Shown: one piece after another, positions 2,377 through 11,144 of the stretch
Layout of the letters: every line of letters begins with the position of its first letter
Position numbering within the stretch: position 1 is the stretch's first letter
DNA from: Desulfococcus multivorans
GTDB taxonomy: Bacteria; Desulfobacterota; Desulfobacteria; Desulfobacterales; Desulfococcaceae
Assembly: GCF_001854245.1 (NCBI RefSeq)
Contig: NZ_CP015381.1
Location: forward strand, 3,941,001-4,005,000
Length of the DNA stretch: 64,000 nt
Reading direction: 5' to 3'
Program-made: the position numbers and the translations under genes
The notes under the pieces: generated by a model
Told to the model about the DNA's origin: nothing
Database searches by the model: none
The model's input: the letters and a program-made list of their open reading frames with translations, nothing else

Positions 2377-4813
2377 AAATACAAAAACCCCGCCCATCGA
2401 TTTCGAGGCGATTACCCGGCTGTTTGCCGCCGCCGAAGCGGCGGGACGATATTTCCTGTTCGAATACGAGGTCTACGATCTCCTCCGCGCATCCGGCGCC
2501 GAGACGCCGCCTGCGACCCGCCTCCTGCCGAAGGGATCGCGGCCCTCGGATGCGGATCTCACGGCCCTGCCGGGGGATCGGGTGGTGCTCAAGATCGTCT
2601 CCCCCGCCATCGTCCACAAAAGCGACGTAGGCGGGGTGAGGATCGTACCCAACACCCCCGAAAAGGTCCGGTCGGCATGGCGCCGCATGATGTCCGAAGT
2701 CCCCGAGGCCTATGCCGCCGTGATGGAGCGAAATCCGACCCTTGCCGTCGCGGACTATCTCGGCCTCGAGGGGGAGCGGCTCCGGCAGGCCGTCTCCCGG
2801 GATATCAAGGGCGTGTTGATGGCGCGGTTCATGCCGCCGGACTCGGAGGCCTTCGGCAATGAGATGATCGTGGGCATCCGGTTCACCCGCGAATTCGGTA
2901 TGATCATCAGCGCCGGACTGGGCGGCACCGACACCGAGCTTTACGCCGAGCGTTTCCGGAAAGGGCAGGCCGTCGTGGCCGCGGCAACGGCCCTGACCGA
3001 CGGCGAGGCCTTTTTCGATCTGTTCCGAGGCACCATCAGCTACCGGAAACTGGCCGGGCTGACCCGGGGACAGCGGCGCATCGTCACCGACGAACAGCTC
3101 GTCGAGTGTTTCGCCGCCTTCATCGCCATGGCCAACCACTATTCCCCGGTCAACCCGACGGCCCCCTACGTCATCGACACGCTGGAAATCAACCCCTTCG
3201 CCTTTACCGATTATCTCATGGTGCCCCTGGACGGGCTGTGCCGATTCTCCCGACCCGGGACCCGCTCCGTGCCAAGGCCCTACTGGAAGATCCGCCGTCT
3301 GCTCCGCCCCGGGATCATCGCCCTCATCGGGGTGTCGGCCTCCCGGGTCAACTTCGGACGGATCATCCTGAACAATATCCTGGCCGCCGGGTTTCCCGCC
3401 GACCGGATCCGTATCATCCGGCCGGGGATCACGGTTCTGGAGGGGGTCCGGTGCGTTCCCGACATCGGGGCACTGGACGTGAAGCCGGATCTTCTGGTCA
3501 TCGCCGTGGGATCCGATCAGGTGCCGGACCTGGTGGACTTGATCATCGAAAGGGATGCGGCCCACACGGTCATGCTCATCCCGGGGGGGCTGGGAGAGAC
3601 CCGGGAGAGCGTTCAGCGGGCCGAGCAGGTGACGGCAGCCGTCCAACGCGCCCATCGATCGCCTTCAGGCGGACCGATCTTCCTGGGGGGCAACTGCCTG
3701 GGGGTCGTCTCCCACCCCGGCCGCTACGACACGCTCTTCATCCCCGACGCGAAGCTTTCAAGGCGGTGGGAGGTCCGGAAGCGCAACGCCGCCTTCGTGA
3801 GCCAGAGCGGCGCCTTCATGATCACGCGGCTCAGCAAGCGGCCGGAGCTGGATCCCGCCTACATGATCTCCGTGGGCAACCAGAACGATCTGACCCTGGG
3901 AGACATGATGCACTATCTCAAAACCGACCCCGACATCGACGTCATCGCCGTCTATGCCGAGGGCTTCAAGGACCTGGACGGCCTCGACTTCACCCGGGCG
4001 CTGCGGGAGGCGGTGGCGTCGGGCAAGGACGTCATCCTCTACAAGGCCGGCCGCACGCCCGAGGGCAAATCCGCCACGTCGGGCCACACCGCGTCTCTGG
4101 CCGGGGACTACATGGTCTGCGAATCCTGCATCCGCCAGGCAGGAGGCATCCCGGCTCAGACCTTTCCCCAGTTCGAGGATCTCCTGATGCTCGCCCAGCG
4201 CCTTCACGGAAAACGCATCAACGGCAACCGTCTGGCGGCCCTGAGCGGCGCCGGCTTCGAGGCCGTGGGCATGGCCGACAACATCCAGTCGGACGACTAC
4301 GCCATGACGCTGGCGCGCTTCACCCCGGTCACCGTGGACAGGATGGCCGCCCTTCTTACGGCAAAGGGTCTCGACCGGCTGGTGGAGGTGGGCAACCCTA
4401 TGGACATCAACCCAGGCGCCGACGACGAGGCCCACATCCTGGCGGTCCGGCATCTGGCCGAGGATCCGAACGTGGATGCGGTGGTCGTGGGCCTCGACCC
4501 CCTGTCGCCGGCCATGCGGACCCTCGCCACCTGCGAAAGCGGCCGGTACAATTTCGACGCTCCCGGGAGCATCGCCTTTGAACTGCCCCGGCAGGTGGAC
4601 GCCCTGGACAAGCCGGTGGTGGGGGTGGTGGATGCCGGACGCCTCTATGACCCGCTGGTGGATGCCCTCGTGGAAAAGGGCATGGCCGTCTTTCGATCCT
4701 CGGATCGGGCGGTCCGGGCCCTGGCCCTCTACATCGAGGGCCGGCTCACCGCCGAACGGATCCGGCACGGCGCTCTTCGACCCGGCAGGGACAAGCCCGA
4801 TCCCGTCATTTGA
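2351..4813 (+). CDS. ADP-forming acetate/acyl-CoA synthetase, fused beta-alpha subunits
   Basis: Interconverts acyl-CoA, ADP and phosphate with free acid, CoA and ATP, giving substrate-level ATP or activating organic acids. About 820 residues: an ATP-grasp (beta-type) domain fills the first 300, then a CoA-binding Rossmann domain begins near residue 310 (IIALIGVSASR), followed by succinyl-CoA-ligase-like domains. The conserved SGHTASLAG segment holds the His (about residue 579) expected to carry phosphate. The domain order is beta then alpha, the reverse of Pat/YfiQ-type fusions, and no acetyltransferase domain is present. An ATG at 2336 is in frame, but GGAGA lies 8 bases before the ATG at 2351, so 2351 is preferred. 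The 3' end overlaps the convergent regulator by 8 bases. Confidence 0.85.
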   Translation: MSLSTPPPENTKTPPIDFEAITRLFAAAEAAGRYFLFEYEVYDLLRASGAETPPATRLLPKGSRPSDADLTALPGDRVVLKIVSPAIVHKSDVGGVRIVPNTPEKVRSAWRRMMSEVPEAYAAVMERNPTLAVADYLGLEGERLRQAVSRDIKGVLMARFMPPDSEAFGNEMIVGIRFTREFGMIISAGLGGTDTELYAERFRKGQAVVAAATALTDGEAFFDLFRGTISYRKLAGLTRGQRRIVTDEQLVECFAAFIAMANHYSPVNPTAPYVIDTLEINPFAFTDYLMVPLDGLCRFSRPGTRSVPRPYWKIRRLLRPGIIALIGVSASRVNFGRIILNNILAAGFPADRIRIIRPGITVLEGVRCVPDIGALDVKPDLLVIAVGSDQVPDLVDLIIERDAAHTVMLIPGGLGETRESVQRAEQVTAAVQRAHRSPSGGPIFLGGNCLGVVSHPGRYDTLFIPDAKLSRRWEVRKRNAAFVSQSGAFMITRLSKRPELDPAYMISVGNQNDLTLGDMMHYLKTDPDIDVIAVYAEGFKDLDGLDFTRALREAVASGKDVILYKAGRTPEGKSATSGHTASLAGDYMVCESCIRQAGGIPAQTFPQFEDLLMLAQRLHGKRINGNRLAALSGAGFEAVGMADNIQSDDYAMTLARFTPVTVDRMAALLTAKGLDRLVEVGNPMDINPGADDEAHILAVRHLAEDPNVDAVVVGLDPLSPAMRTLATCESGRYNFDAPGSIAFELPRQVDALDKPVVGVVDAGRLYDPLVDALVEKGMAVFRSSDRAVRALALYIEGRLTAERIRHGALRPGRDKPDPVI

Positions 4814-6197
4814 TCTTTCGCTCGAAGCGAATCTGGTAGCGCTTCATCCAGTGCCACACGGTGACCCGGGAAACGCCCAGAATCCGGGCGGCCTCGGATT
4901 GGTTCCCATCGGCCGCCTCCAGGGCCTGGACGAGCCGACGCCGTTTTGCCTGCGCTTCCTCAAGGGGATGGGGCGCCGCTTCCGGAGGCCCCGGAGCAGG
5001 GGAGGTGCCGCCCCCGAAAAGGGCGGGCGGAAAGTGCCGGGGCAGGATCACATCGTCCCGGCAGGAGACAAAGGCGAACTCGAAGGCGCTTTTCATCTCC
5101 CTCACGTTGCCCGGCCAGGGATATGCCGCCAACAGCCGCATGGCCTCCCGGGATATGCCTTCGATCTTTTTCCCGCTCTTGAGCCGGATCCGCCGGAAGA
5201 AATGATCGGCCAGGAGGGAAATGTCGCCCGGCCGCTCGCGCAACGGCGGGATGTGAATGGGAATCACGTTGATGCGGTAGAAGAGGTCCTCCCGGAACGC
5301 GCCTTCCCGAACCATCTCCGTGAGATTCCGGTTGGTGGCCGACAGAATGCGGACGTTGATGGGAATGGGGGTATGGTCGCCCACCCGCTCCACCACCTTC
5401 TCCTCGAGCACCCGAAGCAGCTTGACCTGAACCGAGAGGGGGATGTCGCCGATCTCGTCGAGGAAGATATCTCCGCCCCCCGCCGCCGCGAACCGCCCCT
5501 CCCGACTCCGGTAGGCGCCCGTGAAGGCGCCCTTGACGTGCCCGAACAGCTCGCTCTCCAGAAGGGCGGGGTTGAGTGAGGCACAGTTGACCTTCACAAA
5601 GGGGCGCCTGTCGTCTCCCCGGATGTCGTGGATGGCCTTGGCGGCGAGCTCCTTTCCGGTGCCGCTCTCGCCGAGGATGATCACCGGCGCCTCGGAGCGG
5701 GCCGCATTGGCGATGAGATCGAAGACCCGCTGCATGGGGGCCGAGGTCCCCAGGATCCCGTGAAACCCGTCCTCCTGACGGAGTTCCCGGCGGAAGGCTT
5801 CTATCTGGGTATCCTTTTCGACAAGCTCCGAGACGTCGGTCATGGTCTCCACCGCCCCCAGAACCACGCCGTCGCGGTCCCGGAGCAGAGAGGCGTTTTT
5901 GAGCACATGAACCGGCCGGCCGTCCTTTCGGCTGAAGGTGCAGCGCCGCATGTTCATGGCACCGGTTCTGAAGAGCACGCACCAGTGATCCCCCTTTCTT
6001 TCCCGGGCGATTTCACAGGTGTCGCAGTTCAGAAACGAACACGGCTTCCCCACGATCTCCGCCTTTTCATAGCCGGTCATCCGCACCATCCCCCGATTGA
6101 CGGAAACGATGGTCCCGTCCTTGTCCACGATCATGACCCCGTCCTGGATGGTGTCGACGACCGTTTTCCAATAATTGTTCATCTCCGTTTCAAACAC
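4806..6197 (-). CDS. Sigma-54-dependent transcriptional activator with PAS sensor
   Basis: One-component enhancer-binding protein of 463 residues. An N-terminal PAS domain (about 10-125) carries an unusual set of cysteines (53, 58, 61, 73, 86), suggesting a redox, metal or sulfur sensor. The AAA+ domain has Walker A GESGTGKE (176-183), a complete GAFTGA loop (223-228) for sigma-54 contact and Walker B DIFLDE (243-248). A Fis-type helix-turn-helix ends the protein (NQSEAARILGVSRVTV). The start is GTG at 6197 because AGGAG lies 5-6 bases upstream; an in-frame ATG at 6182 is less likely. It is divergent from a sigma-54 promoter at 6350 and from the sulfur-related pair it probably controls. Confidence 0.92.
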   Translation of the reverse strand: MFETEMNNYWKTVVDTIQDGVMIVDKDGTIVSVNRGMVRMTGYEKAEIVGKPCSFLNCDTCEIARERKGDHWCVLFRTGAMNMRRCTFSRKDGRPVHVLKNASLLRDRDGVVLGAVETMTDVSELVEKDTQIEAFRRELRQEDGFHGILGTSAPMQRVFDLIANAARSEAPVIILGESGTGKELAAKAIHDIRGDDRRPFVKVNCASLNPALLESELFGHVKGAFTGAYRSREGRFAAAGGGDIFLDEIGDIPLSVQVKLLRVLEEKVVERVGDHTPIPINVRILSATNRNLTEMVREGAFREDLFYRINVIPIHIPPLRERPGDISLLADHFFRRIRLKSGKKIEGISREAMRLLAAYPWPGNVREMKSAFEFAFVSCRDDVILPRHFPPALFGGGTSPAPGPPEAAPHPLEEAQAKRRRLVQALEAADGNQSEAARILGVSRVTVWHWMKRYQIRFERKIK

Positions 6198-6207
6198 GAC
6201 CGCTCCT

Positions 6208-6253
6208 GTTAACCTTTAACGAATGTTAAAAATCGATCATTAACGAATTTAAC
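6208..6253. promoter_or_regulatory. Tandem operator-like repeats upstream of the sigma-54 promoter
   Basis: TTTAACGAATGTTAAA at 6215-6230 is a dyad with perfect 6-base arms around GAAT. The core TTAACGAAT recurs at 6240-6248, 24 bases downstream, and a GTTAAC palindrome lies at 6208-6213. The sites are about 100-140 bases upstream of the -24/-12 promoter and just upstream of the regulator's own start, the usual place for enhancer sites of a sigma-54 activator. Binding by that activator is inferred. Confidence 0.6.
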
Positions 6254-6349
6254 ACATCCGGCCGCCAACGTCCAGTGTCAAGGAACGACATCGCCCGTGC
6301 CTTTCGGCTAATGGGGATGCGGGAGCGCCCCATGAAAAATACGCGATGC

Positions 6350-6365
6350 TGGCATTTAAATTGCT
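6350..6365 (+). promoter_or_regulatory. Sigma-54 (-24/-12) promoter
   Basis: TGGCAT at 6350-6355 and TTGCT at 6361-6365 match the RpoN consensus, with exactly ten bases between the -24 GG (6351-6352) and the -12 GC (6363-6364). It points toward the TusA-like/CoA-disulfide reductase pair. The predicted leader of about 100 bases contains a bulged hairpin: CCCCGGATGTCG at 6390-6401 pairs with CGACA (6421-6425) and TCCGGGG (6432-6438). Confidence 0.8.
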
Positions 6366-6478
6366 ATGCTCTACAGTCGAAATGCGAAACCCCGGATGTC
6401 GCCACTGCATACCGCGTTCACGACATCGTGGTCCGGGGATCACCCATTATCCGATGAATTCAAAGACAGAGAGGCGTC

Positions 6479-6787
6479 ATGGAACGGCCGCCCGATTACA
6501 TCATCGATGTCAAGGGGATCTTCTCCCCGTTTACCCTCCTGAAAATCAGCCGGGTCTTCAAGGGTATGGCGCCAGGCGATACCCTTGAAATCCGGGAGTG
6601 CGATCCCGAAACCCGTTCCGATCTCCTTCGGATCCTGCCTCCGGAAACCCGTCGTCTGGGCATCGACGACGCCGGCGGCGAAGGCGCGGCCGCCCGCTGC
6701 CGGATTCGGGTGTCCAAGACCGCCGTTCCGGAGCGGACGCCCCCTGTTGAACACCCAACCCCAAGCCAGAAAGGACCCATCAGATGA
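6479..6787 (+). CDS. TusA/SirA-like sulfur-carrier-fold protein lacking the active-site cysteine
   Basis: Small 102-residue protein. Residues 7-40 follow the TusA pattern: D-x-x-G near 10-13, then the helix entry, then PGDTLEI at 32-38. TusA proteins use a CPxP motif whose Cys carries persulfide; here the corresponding position is Ser16-Pro17 (SPFTLLK), so it probably cannot act as a sulfur carrier by itself. The 40-residue tail is proline-rich and low-complexity. The stop overlaps the next gene's ATG by 4 bases (ATGA), coupling it to the disulfide reductase. It may be a scaffold or regulatory subunit for that enzyme; the family call rests on a short motif. Confidence 0.6.
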   Translation: MERPPDYIIDVKGIFSPFTLLKISRVFKGMAPGDTLEIRECDPETRSDLLRILPPETRRLGIDDAGGEGAAARCRIRVSKTAVPERTPPVEHPTPSQKGPIR

Positions 6788-8481
6788 CATCACCGTTAAA
6801 CGTCGTTGTGATCGGCGGCGTCGCCGCCGGCCCCAAGACCGCCGCCCGGCTGAAACGAATCATGCCTGAAGCCCGCGTAACCCTCATCGACAAGGACCGA
6901 ATCGTCTCCTACGGGGCCTGCGGCCTGCCCTACTATGTGGAGGGCCTCTTCGACGACATCAACACCCTCATGGAGACCCCTGTCGGCGTGGCCCGGACCC
7001 CGGTCTTCTTCGACAAGGTCAAGGGATTCTCGGTGAGAACCCGCACCGAAGCCCTTGCCATCGATCGGAAGAACAGGCAGGTCCGGGTCCGCAACCTGGA
7101 TTCGGGTGAGGAGGCCGATCTGCCCTATGACAAGCTGGTGATCGCCACCGGCGGCTATCCGTTCAGGCCGCCGATTCCCGGAGTGGACCTCAAAAACGTC
7201 TGGTTCATGACCCATCCCGACGACGCCCGCACTTTGGTGGAGGAGATCCAGGCCCAGGGGCTGAAAAAAGCGGTGATGGTGGGTGCGGGCTTCATCGGCA
7301 TCGAGATGGCCGAAGCCCTCAAGCACCGGGGCCTCGACGTCACGGTGGTGGAGATGGTGGATCAGATCATGCCCGGCATCCTGGACAAGGATGTGGCGAC
7401 CTTCGCGGCCAAGCATCTCCGGGCCAAAGGCGTCAAACTGGTACTGGGCGAACGGGTCACCGCCATCGAAGGGGACACCCGGGCCGCCGCCGTCAAGACC
7501 GACCGGCAGAAGATCGACGCCGATCTCGTGGTCATCGCCGTGGGCACCCGCCCCAACGACCGTCTGGCCCGGGCCGCCGACCTCGACTGCATGGCCCGGG
7601 GGGGCATCATCATCAATGAATACTGCCAGACCAGCGATCCGAATATCTACGCGGGGGGCGACTGCGTGGTCAACCGGTATGCCGGGAAGATCGCCGGAAG
7701 CCGTCTCTTCGTGGCCCTGGGCTCCACGGCCAACAAGCACGGCCGGATCATCGCCAACCACATCGCCGGAAAGGCCACGCCCTTTTCCGGCATCACCTGC
7801 ACCGGCATCGTCCGCGCCTTCGATTTCACCCTTGGTCGGACCGGTCTCAGCGAGCAGCAGGCCCGCAACCTGAACATGGAGATCGAGACCGTCACCTGGT
7901 CGGGCCCGGACATGCCCCACTACATGCCCGGCAGCGGCCCCTTCATCATCAAGATGATCGCCTCCAAACGGGATCGTAAGCTGCTGGGGGTCCAGGTGGC
8001 CGGCATGGGCAACGGGGCCAAACGGATCGACGTATCAGCCGCGGTCATTCTCCTGGGCGGCACCCTCGACGACGTGAGCGACGTCGATTTCGGCTACGCC
8101 CCGCCCTACAGTCCGCCCATCGATCCCCTGGCCACCTGCGCCCACGTGCTCACCAACAAACTGGACGGCCTGGCCAGGGGAATCTCGGCCTTTGAGGCCA
8201 AGGCGATCATCGACCGGGGCGACGCCCTGCTTCTCGATGTCCGCACACCCCAGGAATTCGCAACAGTGCAGCTCCCCTACGACGTCGTCCACATCCCCCT
8301 GGGGGCCCTCAGGGAAAAATCGGCGGAACTGCCCCGCGACCGGGACATCCTCGCCTTCTGCAAGGTGAGCATGCGGGGATACGAAGCCCAGCTGATCCTC
8401 AACGCCGCGGGGTTCGACCGGGTCCGGTTCATCGAGGGCGGCATCATCGGATGGCCCTTTGAGGTGCGAAACCTGTCCTGA
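6784..8481 (+). CDS. CoA-disulfide/polysulfide reductase with C-terminal rhodanese domain
   Basis: Flavoprotein of the pyridine nucleotide-disulfide oxidoreductase family fused to a rhodanese (CoADR-RHD/Npsr type), expected to reduce CoA-persulfide, polysulfide or CoA disulfide with NAD(P)H. An FAD-binding GGVAAG lies at 11-16, the single redox Cys46 in SYGACGLPYY, and a second nucleotide-binding segment VGAGFIGIE near 161-170. After about residue 450 a rhodanese domain carries the active-site loop Cys526-KVSMRG. The 565-residue length fits the fused family. It sits in a sigma-54-driven unit beside a TusA-like protein, consistent with sulfane-sulfur metabolism in a sulfur-reducing relative. 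Confidence 0.9.
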   Translation: MTSPLNVVVIGGVAAGPKTAARLKRIMPEARVTLIDKDRIVSYGACGLPYYVEGLFDDINTLMETPVGVARTPVFFDKVKGFSVRTRTEALAIDRKNRQVRVRNLDSGEEADLPYDKLVIATGGYPFRPPIPGVDLKNVWFMTHPDDARTLVEEIQAQGLKKAVMVGAGFIGIEMAEALKHRGLDVTVVEMVDQIMPGILDKDVATFAAKHLRAKGVKLVLGERVTAIEGDTRAAAVKTDRQKIDADLVVIAVGTRPNDRLARAADLDCMARGGIIINEYCQTSDPNIYAGGDCVVNRYAGKIAGSRLFVALGSTANKHGRIIANHIAGKATPFSGITCTGIVRAFDFTLGRTGLSEQQARNLNMEIETVTWSGPDMPHYMPGSGPFIIKMIASKRDRKLLGVQVAGMGNGAKRIDVSAAVILLGGTLDDVSDVDFGYAPPYSPPIDPLATCAHVLTNKLDGLARGISAFEAKAIIDRGDALLLDVRTPQEFATVQLPYDVVHIPLGALREKSAELPRDRDILAFCKVSMRGYEAQLILNAAGFDRVRFIEGGIIGWPFEVRNLS

Positions 8482-8506
8482 TCACTCCCGCCGCAACGAA
8501 GGACGT

Positions 8507-8530
8507 CCGGGCGGTCCCGGATAATTTTTT
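8507..8530 (+). terminator. Rho-independent terminator after the disulfide reductase
   Basis: CCGGG (8507-8511) and CCCGG (8516-8520) form a short GC stem, followed by ATAATTTTTT. A second hairpin, GGAGACGGG at 8534-8542 with CCCGTCTCC at 8550-8558, follows directly and has no T-tract. Together they separate the reductase unit from the gene at 8698. Confidence 0.55.
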
Positions 8531-8697
8531 GTCGGAGACGGGGCGGCATCCCGTCTCCGGACGCCCCCTCTGGAGACGGAACCCGTTTTTCTCCTTGTAT
8601 ATTTTTCTCCGCCGTGGTATCGGAAATCGATTTTTCTTTTCCGGATAAAACCACATGAAGAATTGATGCATTCCTGTTTTGAAAGGAGAACGTAGAA

Positions 8698-9189
8698 ATG
8701 GCGCAGAGCAGCAAAGGCTTACCCAAGATCATACCCTTGACGCTGGTCATCCTGTTGGGCATCCTGGTCCAGGTGTTGTTCGTCTTCGCGGACATGCAAG
8801 AAACGCCGAACAAGGCGGCCGTAGCCTTCGCGGAAGCCTACTACGGATTCGACAAGACGGGGCTGGGGGAACGACTCTGTGAAAGCAGCCGGGTGGTCGA
8901 CGAGGTGAACGTCGTCGATCAGTACATATACGATGCCGCCCGGAAGGCCGAGGCCCGGGGATACGACCTGGGAATGTACGTCAAGAACGATCTCTATCAT
9001 GTGGAGACCGAAATCCTCGAGGAATCCTTCGACAAGGCCAGGGTCCGCCTGACGGCCGAGCGCAAGTCCGGCCTGAGGACCTTCTTCTCCAGGGAAGACG
9101 TCCATCCGGTGGACCTCACCTTCGACCTTGTCAGAGAGGACGGCAAATGGAAGGTCTGCACCGATCTTCTCTCCCTCGACAAGGCATAA
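8698..9189 (+). CDS. Membrane-anchored protein of unknown function
   Basis: I do not recognise this 163-residue protein. One hydrophobic segment (about 11-31) looks like an uncleaved signal anchor, leaving a soluble C-terminal domain outside the cytoplasm. That domain is alpha+beta: a helix with AVAFAEAYYGFD, then alternating strands ending in LTFDLVREDGKWKVCTDLLS. The pattern resembles NTF2-like or DUF4878-type periplasmic domains, but this is only a style match. AAGGAG at 8683-8688 is 9 bases before the ATG, so the start is secure. It is preceded by terminator-like hairpins and probably has its own promoter. Confidence 0.7.
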   Translation: MAQSSKGLPKIIPLTLVILLGILVQVLFVFADMQETPNKAAVAFAEAYYGFDKTGLGERLCESSRVVDEVNVVDQYIYDAARKAEARGYDLGMYVKNDLYHVETEILEESFDKARVRLTAERKSGLRTFFSREDVHPVDLTFDLVREDGKWKVCTDLLSLDKA

Positions 9190-9266
9190 CCCCTTCCCGT
9201 TACCCGATTGAGAAGTCCTCGATCCCGGCAGGGCGGCCCCGCCGCCCCGCCGGTGTTCAGACCGAT

Positions 9267-10058
9267 GTGACATTGCACCCCTCGAAAGATATCGGCGTGC
9301 CCTACACCGACATTCGGCGCTGCGCCAGACGGATCGCGGCCCGATTCCCCGTCCCGGAATTTTACGTCGATTTTCCCCTGGAGTTCGCTTTTTCCCAGCG
9401 TTTTTTCGAACTGGATCCAACCGTTTGCGCCATACGACGCATCGCCGTCCGGGAACTGGAGGACGATCTGGGACACGGACTGCCCCACGCCGACAAGGTG
9501 AGCCTGGATGCCGGAGCCCTCGCGATCATCGAGAGCCGGCGCATCGGCCTCTCCCTCCGGTGCATCCGGAAGCGGCTTCGGCTGGCCCAATCGGCGGGGC
9601 TGCTCCACGATATCCGACGCAAGGATGCCGATCATGCCCTGACGGGATCGATACATGCCCGGAAGCTTCTGGAAGGAAGCGGGCTGTTCACGTCGTCGGA
9701 GATTGACGCTGTCTGCGGCGCCATCCTGAACCACGAAGCCTTCAAGCGAAACCTGCCCATCCCGGGCGGGAAAGACCGGATGATATCGGACTGTCTCTAC
9801 GACGCCGACAAGTTCCGATGGGGGTACGACAATTTTACCGACACCGTATGGACCATGGTATCCTACCTGCGGGTGCCGATCGAGGATTTCATCGGTCGAT
9901 ACCCCCAGGGTATGGCAAGGATCGCCGACATCAAGCGGACCTTCCGCACTGAAACGGGGAAGGTCTACGGCCCGCGCTTCATCGACATGGGCCTCGCCGT
10001 CGGCAGGCTGCTCTACGAGACCCTCCGGCGCGACTTCGCAGCCGTCATCGCCCCATGA
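9267..10058 (+). CDS. HD-domain phosphohydrolase-like protein
   Basis: About 263 residues. The region with LLHDIRR followed by DADHA, then a later D-KFRWG segment, is the metal-binding pattern of HD-superfamily hydrolases, which act on nucleotides or phosphate esters; the substrate cannot be told. The frame is open from 9147, but that would overlap the previous gene. The upstream part is low-complexity Arg/Pro-rich translation, so a GTG near 9267 is preferred, without a clear ribosome site. The last codon overlaps the start of the J-domain gene by 4 bases, so the two are coupled. Confidence 0.7.
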
Positions 10059-10507
10059 AGCTCATCGGCATCATCATCGGCCTGATCTACACCCTGTGGC
10101 CCGTAGATATCATCCCCGACATGCCGTTTGTGGGATTTCTGGACGATGTTGCCCTGTGGGTCCTCCTCTTCTGGTATCTCTTCCTGCGCCCCGGCGCAAC
10201 GGAAACACCCGCTTCGGAAGATGCCGACCCCCGTCGGGATCGCTCCCGGACCTTCCGGGGCGGCCGCGACGAGCGGGGAGGGACCGACCAGAGGCCGCCG
10301 ACCGGGGACGCCCCGAAGGACCCCTATGAGATCCTGGGCATCGACCGGGGCGCTTCACCCGAGGCTGTCAAAAAAGCCTATCGGACCCTGGCGGCCAAAT
10401 ACCACCCCGACAAGTTCGCCCACCTGGGGGAGGATTTCCAGAAAACGGCCGAAAAGCGGTTCAAAGAAATCCACGAGGCCTATCGCACCCTGATATCCAA
10501 ACCCTGA
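10055..10507 (+). CDS. DUF1232 membrane segment fused to a DnaJ J-domain
   Basis: A 150-residue co-chaperone-like protein. Residues 5-46 are hydrophobic and match the DUF1232 (YkvA) signature: WPVDIIPD, then [13 protein letters not shown] charged, disordered linker (about 50-86) leads to a J domain (88-148) with the essential HPD at 117-119. J domains stimulate DnaK ATPase, so this would recruit DnaK to the inner membrane. The G/F-rich and zinc-finger regions of full DnaJ are absent. The ATG overlaps the stop of the HD-domain gene. Confidence 0.85.
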
Positions 10508-10550
10508 AGCGGGGCGCCGTCGCCGGTCCCCGCCGTGAAGGAGTCGAAAC

Positions 10551-11144
10551 ATGCCCAAGATTGTCGCCGTTTACGGCAGCCCGAGACGAAACGGGAACAC
10601 CGCGACCCTGCTGAAAGCGGCCGTCAGGGGCGCCCGGGACGCCGGCGCCGAGGTCCGGGAATTCGTATTGCGGGACCTCAGGATGTCGCCCTGCCTTGAA
10701 ATCTACAAATGCAGGGAGAACGGTCGGTGCGCCATCCGGGACGACTTTCAGACGGTCCATGACGACATCCTCTCCGCCGAAGGCATGATGATCGCCTCCC
10801 CGATCTTTTTCTACACCGTGAGCGCCCACACCAAGATTCTGATGGACCGCTGCCAGTCCTGCTGGGTCAAGAAATACTGGATCGACAAGGCCGCCTTCGG
10901 AAAACGGCCCCCCACCCGCAAGGGGCTCTTCATCGCCGTGGGGGCGACCCGGGGGAAAAGGCTCTTCGAGGGGGCCCTCCTCACCGTACGCTACTTTTTC
11001 GACGTCCTGGACATGGACCTCTGGCGATCGCTGCTTTACCGGGGTCTCGACTTCGAAGGGGACGTCCTGGAACACCCCGAGTACCTGGAAGAGGCATATC
11101 GAACCGGTCGGGCCCTGGCGGAAGCCCTTCCCGCTCCGAAGTAG
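10551..11144 (+). CDS. NADPH-dependent FMN reductase / flavodoxin-fold oxidoreductase
   Basis: Flavodoxin-fold protein of 197 residues. The first strand and phosphate loop (VAVYGSPRRNGNTA) bind FMN, and ASPIFFYTVSAH is the second flavin loop. Cys48, Cys54 and Cys60 occupy the region where iron-sulfur flavoproteins carry their cluster motif, but the spacing (x5, x5) is looser than the classical one, so cluster binding is uncertain. AAGGAG precedes the ATG. Likely role: NAD(P)H-dependent flavin, quinone or metal reduction in the cytoplasm. An ABC exporter gene follows after 9 bases. Confidence 0.82.
   Translation: MPKIVAVYGSPRRNGNTATLLKAAVRGARDAGAEVREFVLRDLRMSPCLEIYKCRENGRCAIRDDFQTVHDDILSAEGMMIASPIFFYTVSAHTKILMDRCQSCWVKKYWIDKAAFGKRPPTRKGLFIAVGATRGKRLFEGALLTVRYFFDVLDMDLWRSLLYRGLDFEGDVLEHPEYLEEAYRTGRALAEALPAPK

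Follow-up and report, generated by a model that had tools for sequence, protein, structure and literature searches.

What does a sigma-54 activator with a cysteine-rich PAS domain respond to, and what does it control, when its gene faces those of a TusA-like protein and a CoADR-rhodanese enzyme? This question is raised by a 64-kb stretch of DNA (the window, taken at its full length) from the complete 4.46-Mb genome of Desulfococcus multivorans. The original prediction read the arrangement as a module that senses sulfane sulfur, persulfide, or redox state and induces its detoxification or reduction. The open reading frames, domains, promoter, and repeats that it named were all found in the sequence (Table 1), and its interpretation is partly supported by the analyses described here.

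Table 1. Features of the divergent locus (positions in the window).
Feature	Position	Strand	Remarks
One-component sigma-54 activator	4806..6197	-	463 aa, GTG start; Pfam: Sigma54_activat 224.6 bits, PAS_9, HTH_8
Upstream activator sequence (predicted)	6208..6258	.	TGTTAA/TTAAC half-site array, GTTAACctTTAACgaaTGTTAA ... TTAACgaaTTTAACA; about 100 bp upstream of -24 element
-24/-12 sigma-54 promoter	6350..6365	+	TGGCAT-TTAAA-TTGCT (TGGCATTTAAATTGCT); oriented toward TusA-like gene
TusA-like protein	6479..6787	+	102 aa, SPFT at motif; TusA Pfam 1.9e-4, below cut-off
CoADR-rhodanese fusion	6784..8481	+	565 aa; CoADR core and C-terminal rhodanese domain
Intrinsic terminator (possible)	8505..8532	+	3' of CoADR-rhodanese gene

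Architecture of the divergent locus

The activator comprises, in order, a PAS domain, an AAA+ sigma-54 interaction domain with a Walker motif and a complete GAFTGA loop (residue 223), an AAA lid, and a Fis-type helix-turn-helix domain, as is expected of a one-component sigma-54 activator. The protein is as it had been predicted, but its gene lies outside the interval to which the module had been assigned (6208-8481). The five cysteines of the PAS domain (C53, C58, C61, C73, and C86) span about 34 residues; in an alignment of relatives, C53, C58, C73, and C86 were invariant (73 of 73) and C61 was present in 65 of 73. Named relatives of the activator are mostly from Desulfobacterota. Structure prediction yielded a PAS fold for the sensor domain, with LOV domains as the best fold matches, and C53 aligns with the reactive cysteine of LOV (6rhg). 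Light sensing of the LOV type was considered because of these matches and was ruled out, as the flavin-contacting Asn/Asn/Gln residues of 6rhg are not conserved in the family consensus. NreB is likewise a PAS sensor with cysteines.

Two further related PAS activators are encoded in the same genome, each facing an operon or gene without a TusA-like gene. One (L061, G000:C1:2051070-2052437) has all five cysteines and faces an operon encoding cytochrome c-like and cytochrome b-like proteins, with a similar TGTTAA array and the -24/-12-like site CGGCAT-N5-TTGCT. The other (L062, G000:C1:1980780-1982123) has three of the five cysteines and faces a thioredoxin-like gene, with the site TGGCAC-N5-TTGAT.

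The -24/-12 element upstream of the TusA-like gene is exactly spaced, as originally described, and is the sole exact match to TGGCAY-N5-TTGCW within the window. Since about two sites with at most one mismatch are expected by chance in 64 kb, this promoter taken alone is modest evidence; it is convincing because it is conserved in related divergent pairs. Among 78 distinct paired loci, the best site had at most one mismatch in 63 and at most two in 74, compared with 0.2% and about 5%, respectively, of mononucleotide shuffles. These sites always read toward the TusA-like gene, and the best site on the opposite strand never had fewer than two mismatches. Together with an RpoN DNA-binding domain encoded in the window's genome (above the Pfam cut-off), the conserved element supports control by sigma-54.

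Repeated TTAACGAAT operators had been proposed between the two genes. Exactly two copies are present, in tandem at positions 6216 and 6240, and sequence comparison indicates that they are better described as part of an array of TGTTAA/TTAACA half-sites at about 6208-6258. Of 77 homologous intergenic regions, 67 contain TGTTAA beside the activator start, compared with 15.9 in shuffles. The layout that recurs in relatives is cTGTTAAaatTTAACAc-TGTTAA-N8-TTAACAcTTTAACA, of which the repeats in the window can be read as a diverged version. Half-sites also differ with the recognition helix of the activator: RVTVWN/RVTIWN helices occur with TGTTAA, RVSLY/RVALY helices with TGTAAA, and RTSVW/RTTIW helices with more TGTTCA. 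This covariation is consistent with the array as the binding site of the activator itself, but relatedness confounds it. Promoter and upstream activator sites are therefore both conserved at the targets, as is characteristic of sigma-54 activators and as the original prediction of a divergent activator with its own operator had anticipated. That prediction had named a lack of such conservation as grounds for refutation, and it survives the comparison.

The genome has a single copy of the full array, which suggests that the window activator probably acts locally. A wider regulon in this genome was considered and rejected on this ground and because looser 14-mers were about as frequent as the control; two other exact 14-mers that were inspected had no -24/-12 site with at most one mismatch nearby.

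The stop codon of the TusA-like gene and the start codon of the CoADR-rhodanese gene overlap as ATGA, which suggests that the two are translationally coupled. Both catalytic cysteines of the enzyme are present, the active-site Cys46 (GACGLPYY; FAD-site) and the rhodanese Cys526 (CKVSMRG). Its score against the NCBIfam equivalog for CoA-disulfide reductase (394.5) is below the cut-off (578.8), and its nearest solved relative is Npsr from Archaeoglobus fulgidus (6pfz; 479 bits, with the match covering almost the whole protein). The CoADR-rhodanese enzyme that had been predicted is thus of the Npsr kind by this relative. It shares full-length similarity and both cysteines with the enzymes of A. 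fulgidus and Shewanella loihica (6pfz and 3nta; PMC7969121), and differs from them in being preceded by a sigma-54 promoter and a gene for a TusA-like protein without the sulfur-carrying cysteine. A. fulgidus Npsr prefers persulfide and polysulfide, and a protective role in this sulfate reducer has been raised as a possibility (PMC7969121). By sequence, the window enzyme is expected to reduce the same substrates with NADH.

Downstream of the enzyme gene, one possible intrinsic terminator was found; because 0.5 are expected in shuffles, this is weak evidence. Genes located beyond it (8698-11144) encode a 163-aa protein weakly like Rv0361 and then three to four others, and L063 and L066 show synteny with this stretch.

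Conservation of the pair and exchange of its cargo

Querying 58 related genomes with the TusA-like protein recovered 28 relatives without the CPxP cysteine, along with four loci of genuine TusA. A Cys-PAS activator, intact or truncated by a contig end, stands opposite 24 of the cysteine-less relatives; one (L065) faces a decayed activator remnant, one (L085) faces another sigma-54 activator, and two are located at contig gaps or ends where pairing is not assessable. The four genuine TusA loci have no such pairing. The divergent pair thus recurs in related genomes, together with its operator array.

In a wider locus search, the TusA-like protein as a single query gave no match, and aligned PAS domains served as the query instead. 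This identified 80 Cys-PAS activators in the species-genome collection, 63 of which divergently adjoin a TusA-like gene, a fraction that is not an unbiased pairing frequency because the query profile was built from paired loci. Two of the 63 TusA-like genes (L135 and L172) keep a cysteine, and that of L172 is an ordinary cargo TusA. Ten of the 17 unpaired activators are truly unpaired, since their upstream sequence extends beyond 1 kb and contains no TusA-like gene. A phylum-wide profile search was also conducted; at low scores it was swamped by matches that probably represent ordinary TusA.

Three loci depart from the common arrangement. At L065, the stretch of about 1190 bases upstream of the TusA-like gene holds an activator that has decayed to PAS and HTH fragments in different frames, with small other open reading frames between them; the -24/-12 site and the TusA-like/MTHFR operon are intact, and regulation may be gone or may have passed to a paralog. 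At L085 (about 4766-6094, oriented so that the TusA-like gene is on the + strand), the PAS domain of the sigma-54 activator is without the five-cysteine pattern and its loop is GAFTDA; the TusA-like gene opposite this activator precedes Tmc-type cargo. At L170 (Desulfocicer vacuolatum, about 3935-6001), no TusA-like gene separates a Cys-PAS activator from the CoADR gene that it faces, and the intergenic region has the -24/-12-like site AGGCAC-N5-TTGCT and TGTTCA/TTAACA half-sites. The TusA-like protein is therefore not always needed.

The genes that follow the TusA-like gene, referred to here as cargo, are of several types. The most common (type I, 32 of 78 loci) comprises a true TusA, MvhD, two HdrA-like proteins, a QmoC-like protein, and sometimes DsrE-like proteins. 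Type II (15 loci) encodes MTHFR, HdrA, MvhD, and a MetV-type protein, while type III (seven loci) encodes Hmc/Tmc-type complexes; in L088, HmcB and TmcD score higher than the NCBIfam cut-offs. CoADR is the cargo at only six loci (type IV; the window, L063, L064, L066, L160, and L169), with a rhodanese domain in the window. The remaining loci carry other operons with HdrA (three) or other genes (seven), or are too short to be classified (eight). About 22 of the type I operons also encode a protein of about 95-130 aa between the HdrA-like and QmoC-like genes that has no Pfam or NCBIfam match, as at L117:1107-1400 on the - strand.

When cargo was mapped on the activator tree, 22 changes were required, compared with 37.9 in shuffles (0 of 200 shuffles were as low). 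This comparison of sequences indicates that cargo types cluster on the tree yet have been exchanged repeatedly, with at least two independent origins of CoADR as cargo.

The TusA-like protein and the signal

The similarity of the window protein to TusA is remote for a single sequence (Pfam score 21.7 against a cut-off of 28.6 bits). A profile of the family matches E. coli TusA structures (1dcj and 3lvj, E about 2e-5), and the predicted fold is beta-alpha-beta-alpha-beta-beta (pLDDT 75.5; TM to target 0.72-0.73). The fold and the similarity are therefore those of TusA. Where TusA has Cys-Pro-x-Pro, the window protein has Ser-Pro-Phe-Thr, and none of 55 aligned relatives has a cysteine at this position, the commonest residues being Thr, Ala, Ile, and Ser. 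What is shared with TusA/YedF sulfur carriers is thus the fold and remote similarity, and what is missing is their catalytic cysteine. A pseudogene origin was ruled out on the basis of dN/dS values of 0.11-0.41 where measurable, indicating purifying selection, and of the many lineages that have the gene. These observations suggest that the protein is real and probably not a sulfur carrier by the TusA mechanism. The TusA-like designation of the original prediction stands in this sense, but the implied role in carrying sulfane sulfur is not supported.

A role in regulation can be proposed by analogy. PspA binds and controls PspF in E. coli (PMC6003685), and RtcAB bind and control RtcR (PMC9650030). 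These systems, like the one described here, pair a sigma-54 activator with its own target operon, and in both of them operon products bind the activator. The locus described here differs in its putative partner protein, which is of the TusA fold, and in the PAS domain of its activator. By this analogy, the TusA-like protein may be a co-regulator of the facing activator, as PspA is for PspF. An alternative is that it serves as a small subunit or chaperone shared by the downstream enzymes, such that its pairing with the activator reflects nothing but its position at the head of the operon. That position, and the overlap with the enzyme gene in the window, would be expected of such a subunit. Yet the cargo families are mostly unrelated (CoADR, MTHFR/HdrA, and Hmc/Tmc) while the TusA-like/activator pair is constant, and we regard a subunit or chaperone as unlikely.

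FisR regulators control sqr/pdo sulfide-oxidation genes and are activated through persulfidation of cysteines in the N-terminal domain. In Acinetobacter baumannii, for example, FisR is a sigma-54 activator reported to respond to sulfur species and to turn on sulfur-handling genes (PMC7315123). The window activator belongs with FisR in being a sigma-54 activator and differs from it in the five-cysteine PAS sensor, the cysteine-less TusA-like first gene, and cargo other than sqr/pdo; no such genes are present at the window locus, and none were recognised in the main types of cargo that recur across the 78 loci. A comparable scheme would be a dedicated sulfane-sulfur detoxification system in which persulfidation of the PAS domain induces the CoADR-rhodanese enzyme and the TusA-like protein helps in handover of sulfane sulfur. 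At the window locus persulfide sensing is plausible, because the enzyme closely resembles the NADH-dependent persulfide reductase Npsr, which prefers per- and polysulfides (PMC7969121). CoADR also recurs as a target, at L170 in addition to the six type IV loci, and genes for true TusA and DsrE-like proteins belong to the most common type of cargo. For the family, this part of the original prediction is not specific, given the rarity of CoADR-type cargo. Most of the cargo (HdrA, MTHFR, Qmo-like, and Hmc/Tmc) is involved in electron transfer and not in removal of sulfane sulfur, and the TusA-like protein is without the cysteine that a handover would use. As an account of the cassette in general, detoxification therefore seems improbable.

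A stronger contender, to which we assign an appreciable but still minority probability, is that the PAS cysteines hold an Fe-S cluster or zinc and that the activator senses oxygen or redox state, with sulfur chemistry being incidental. Four invariant cysteines and one nearly invariant cysteine within a single PAS domain are consistent with a metal site, and Fe-S electron-transfer machinery makes up the bulk of the cargo. Set against this, sequence does not discriminate between Fe-S, zinc, disulfide, and persulfide modes. The signal that we infer as most likely is broader, namely thiol, persulfide, Fe-S, or redox state as read by the PAS cysteines.

Implications for the control of redox enzymes

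We propose that the locus is a two-gene divergent sigma-54 control cassette with an attached enzyme. In this model, the activator would bind the array of TGTTAA half-sites adjacent to its gene. With the cysteine-rich PAS domain in the activating state, it would drive RpoN polymerase at the -24/-12 promoter of the operon that it faces. In paired loci this operon would provide the cysteine-less TusA-fold protein and then a redox enzyme or complex, which in the window would be an Npsr-type CoADR-rhodanese that reduces persulfide or polysulfide with NADH. The TusA-like protein would most likely act as a feedback inhibitor of the facing activator or couple a signal to it. We consider this model as a whole to be reasonably probable. 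We are less sure of a more general proposal, to which we give somewhat less than an even chance: that a catalytically dead TusA-fold family became the dedicated partner of Cys-PAS activators, forming a portable sensor cassette of the Desulfobacterota that is placed before varied electron-transfer operons (TusA/HdrA/Qmo-like, MTHFR/HdrA, Hmc/Tmc, and Npsr), with the operator and DNA-binding helix re-tuned within lineages.

Parts of this picture have precedents. A study of the Desulfovibrio vulgaris sigma-54 regulome shows one-component PAS activators with local targets to be common in sulfate reducers; TusA, Hmc, and Tmc are unmentioned in its main text (PMC4641369). The genome paper of Desulfobacterium autotrophicum describes multiple hdrA/mvhD loci. 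Searches of the literature, covering open-licence papers, found no paper that describes the activator/TusA-like cassette.

Little is known about how sulfate reducers time the production of their energy-conserving complexes. The recurrence of a two-gene unit with different complexes of energy metabolism points to a widespread and apparently undescribed switch for redox machinery. Viewed across its loci, the unit resembles a general redox switch that serves Hdr-type and thiol enzymes in Desulfobacterota. If true, a TusA fold without its cysteine acting as a regulator would be a new role for this fold. If one type of cassette controls Qmo-like, MTHFR/HdrA, Hmc/Tmc, and persulfide-reductase operons, the TGTTAA/TTAACA array combined with a -24/-12 element would predict regulons across the Desulfobacterota.
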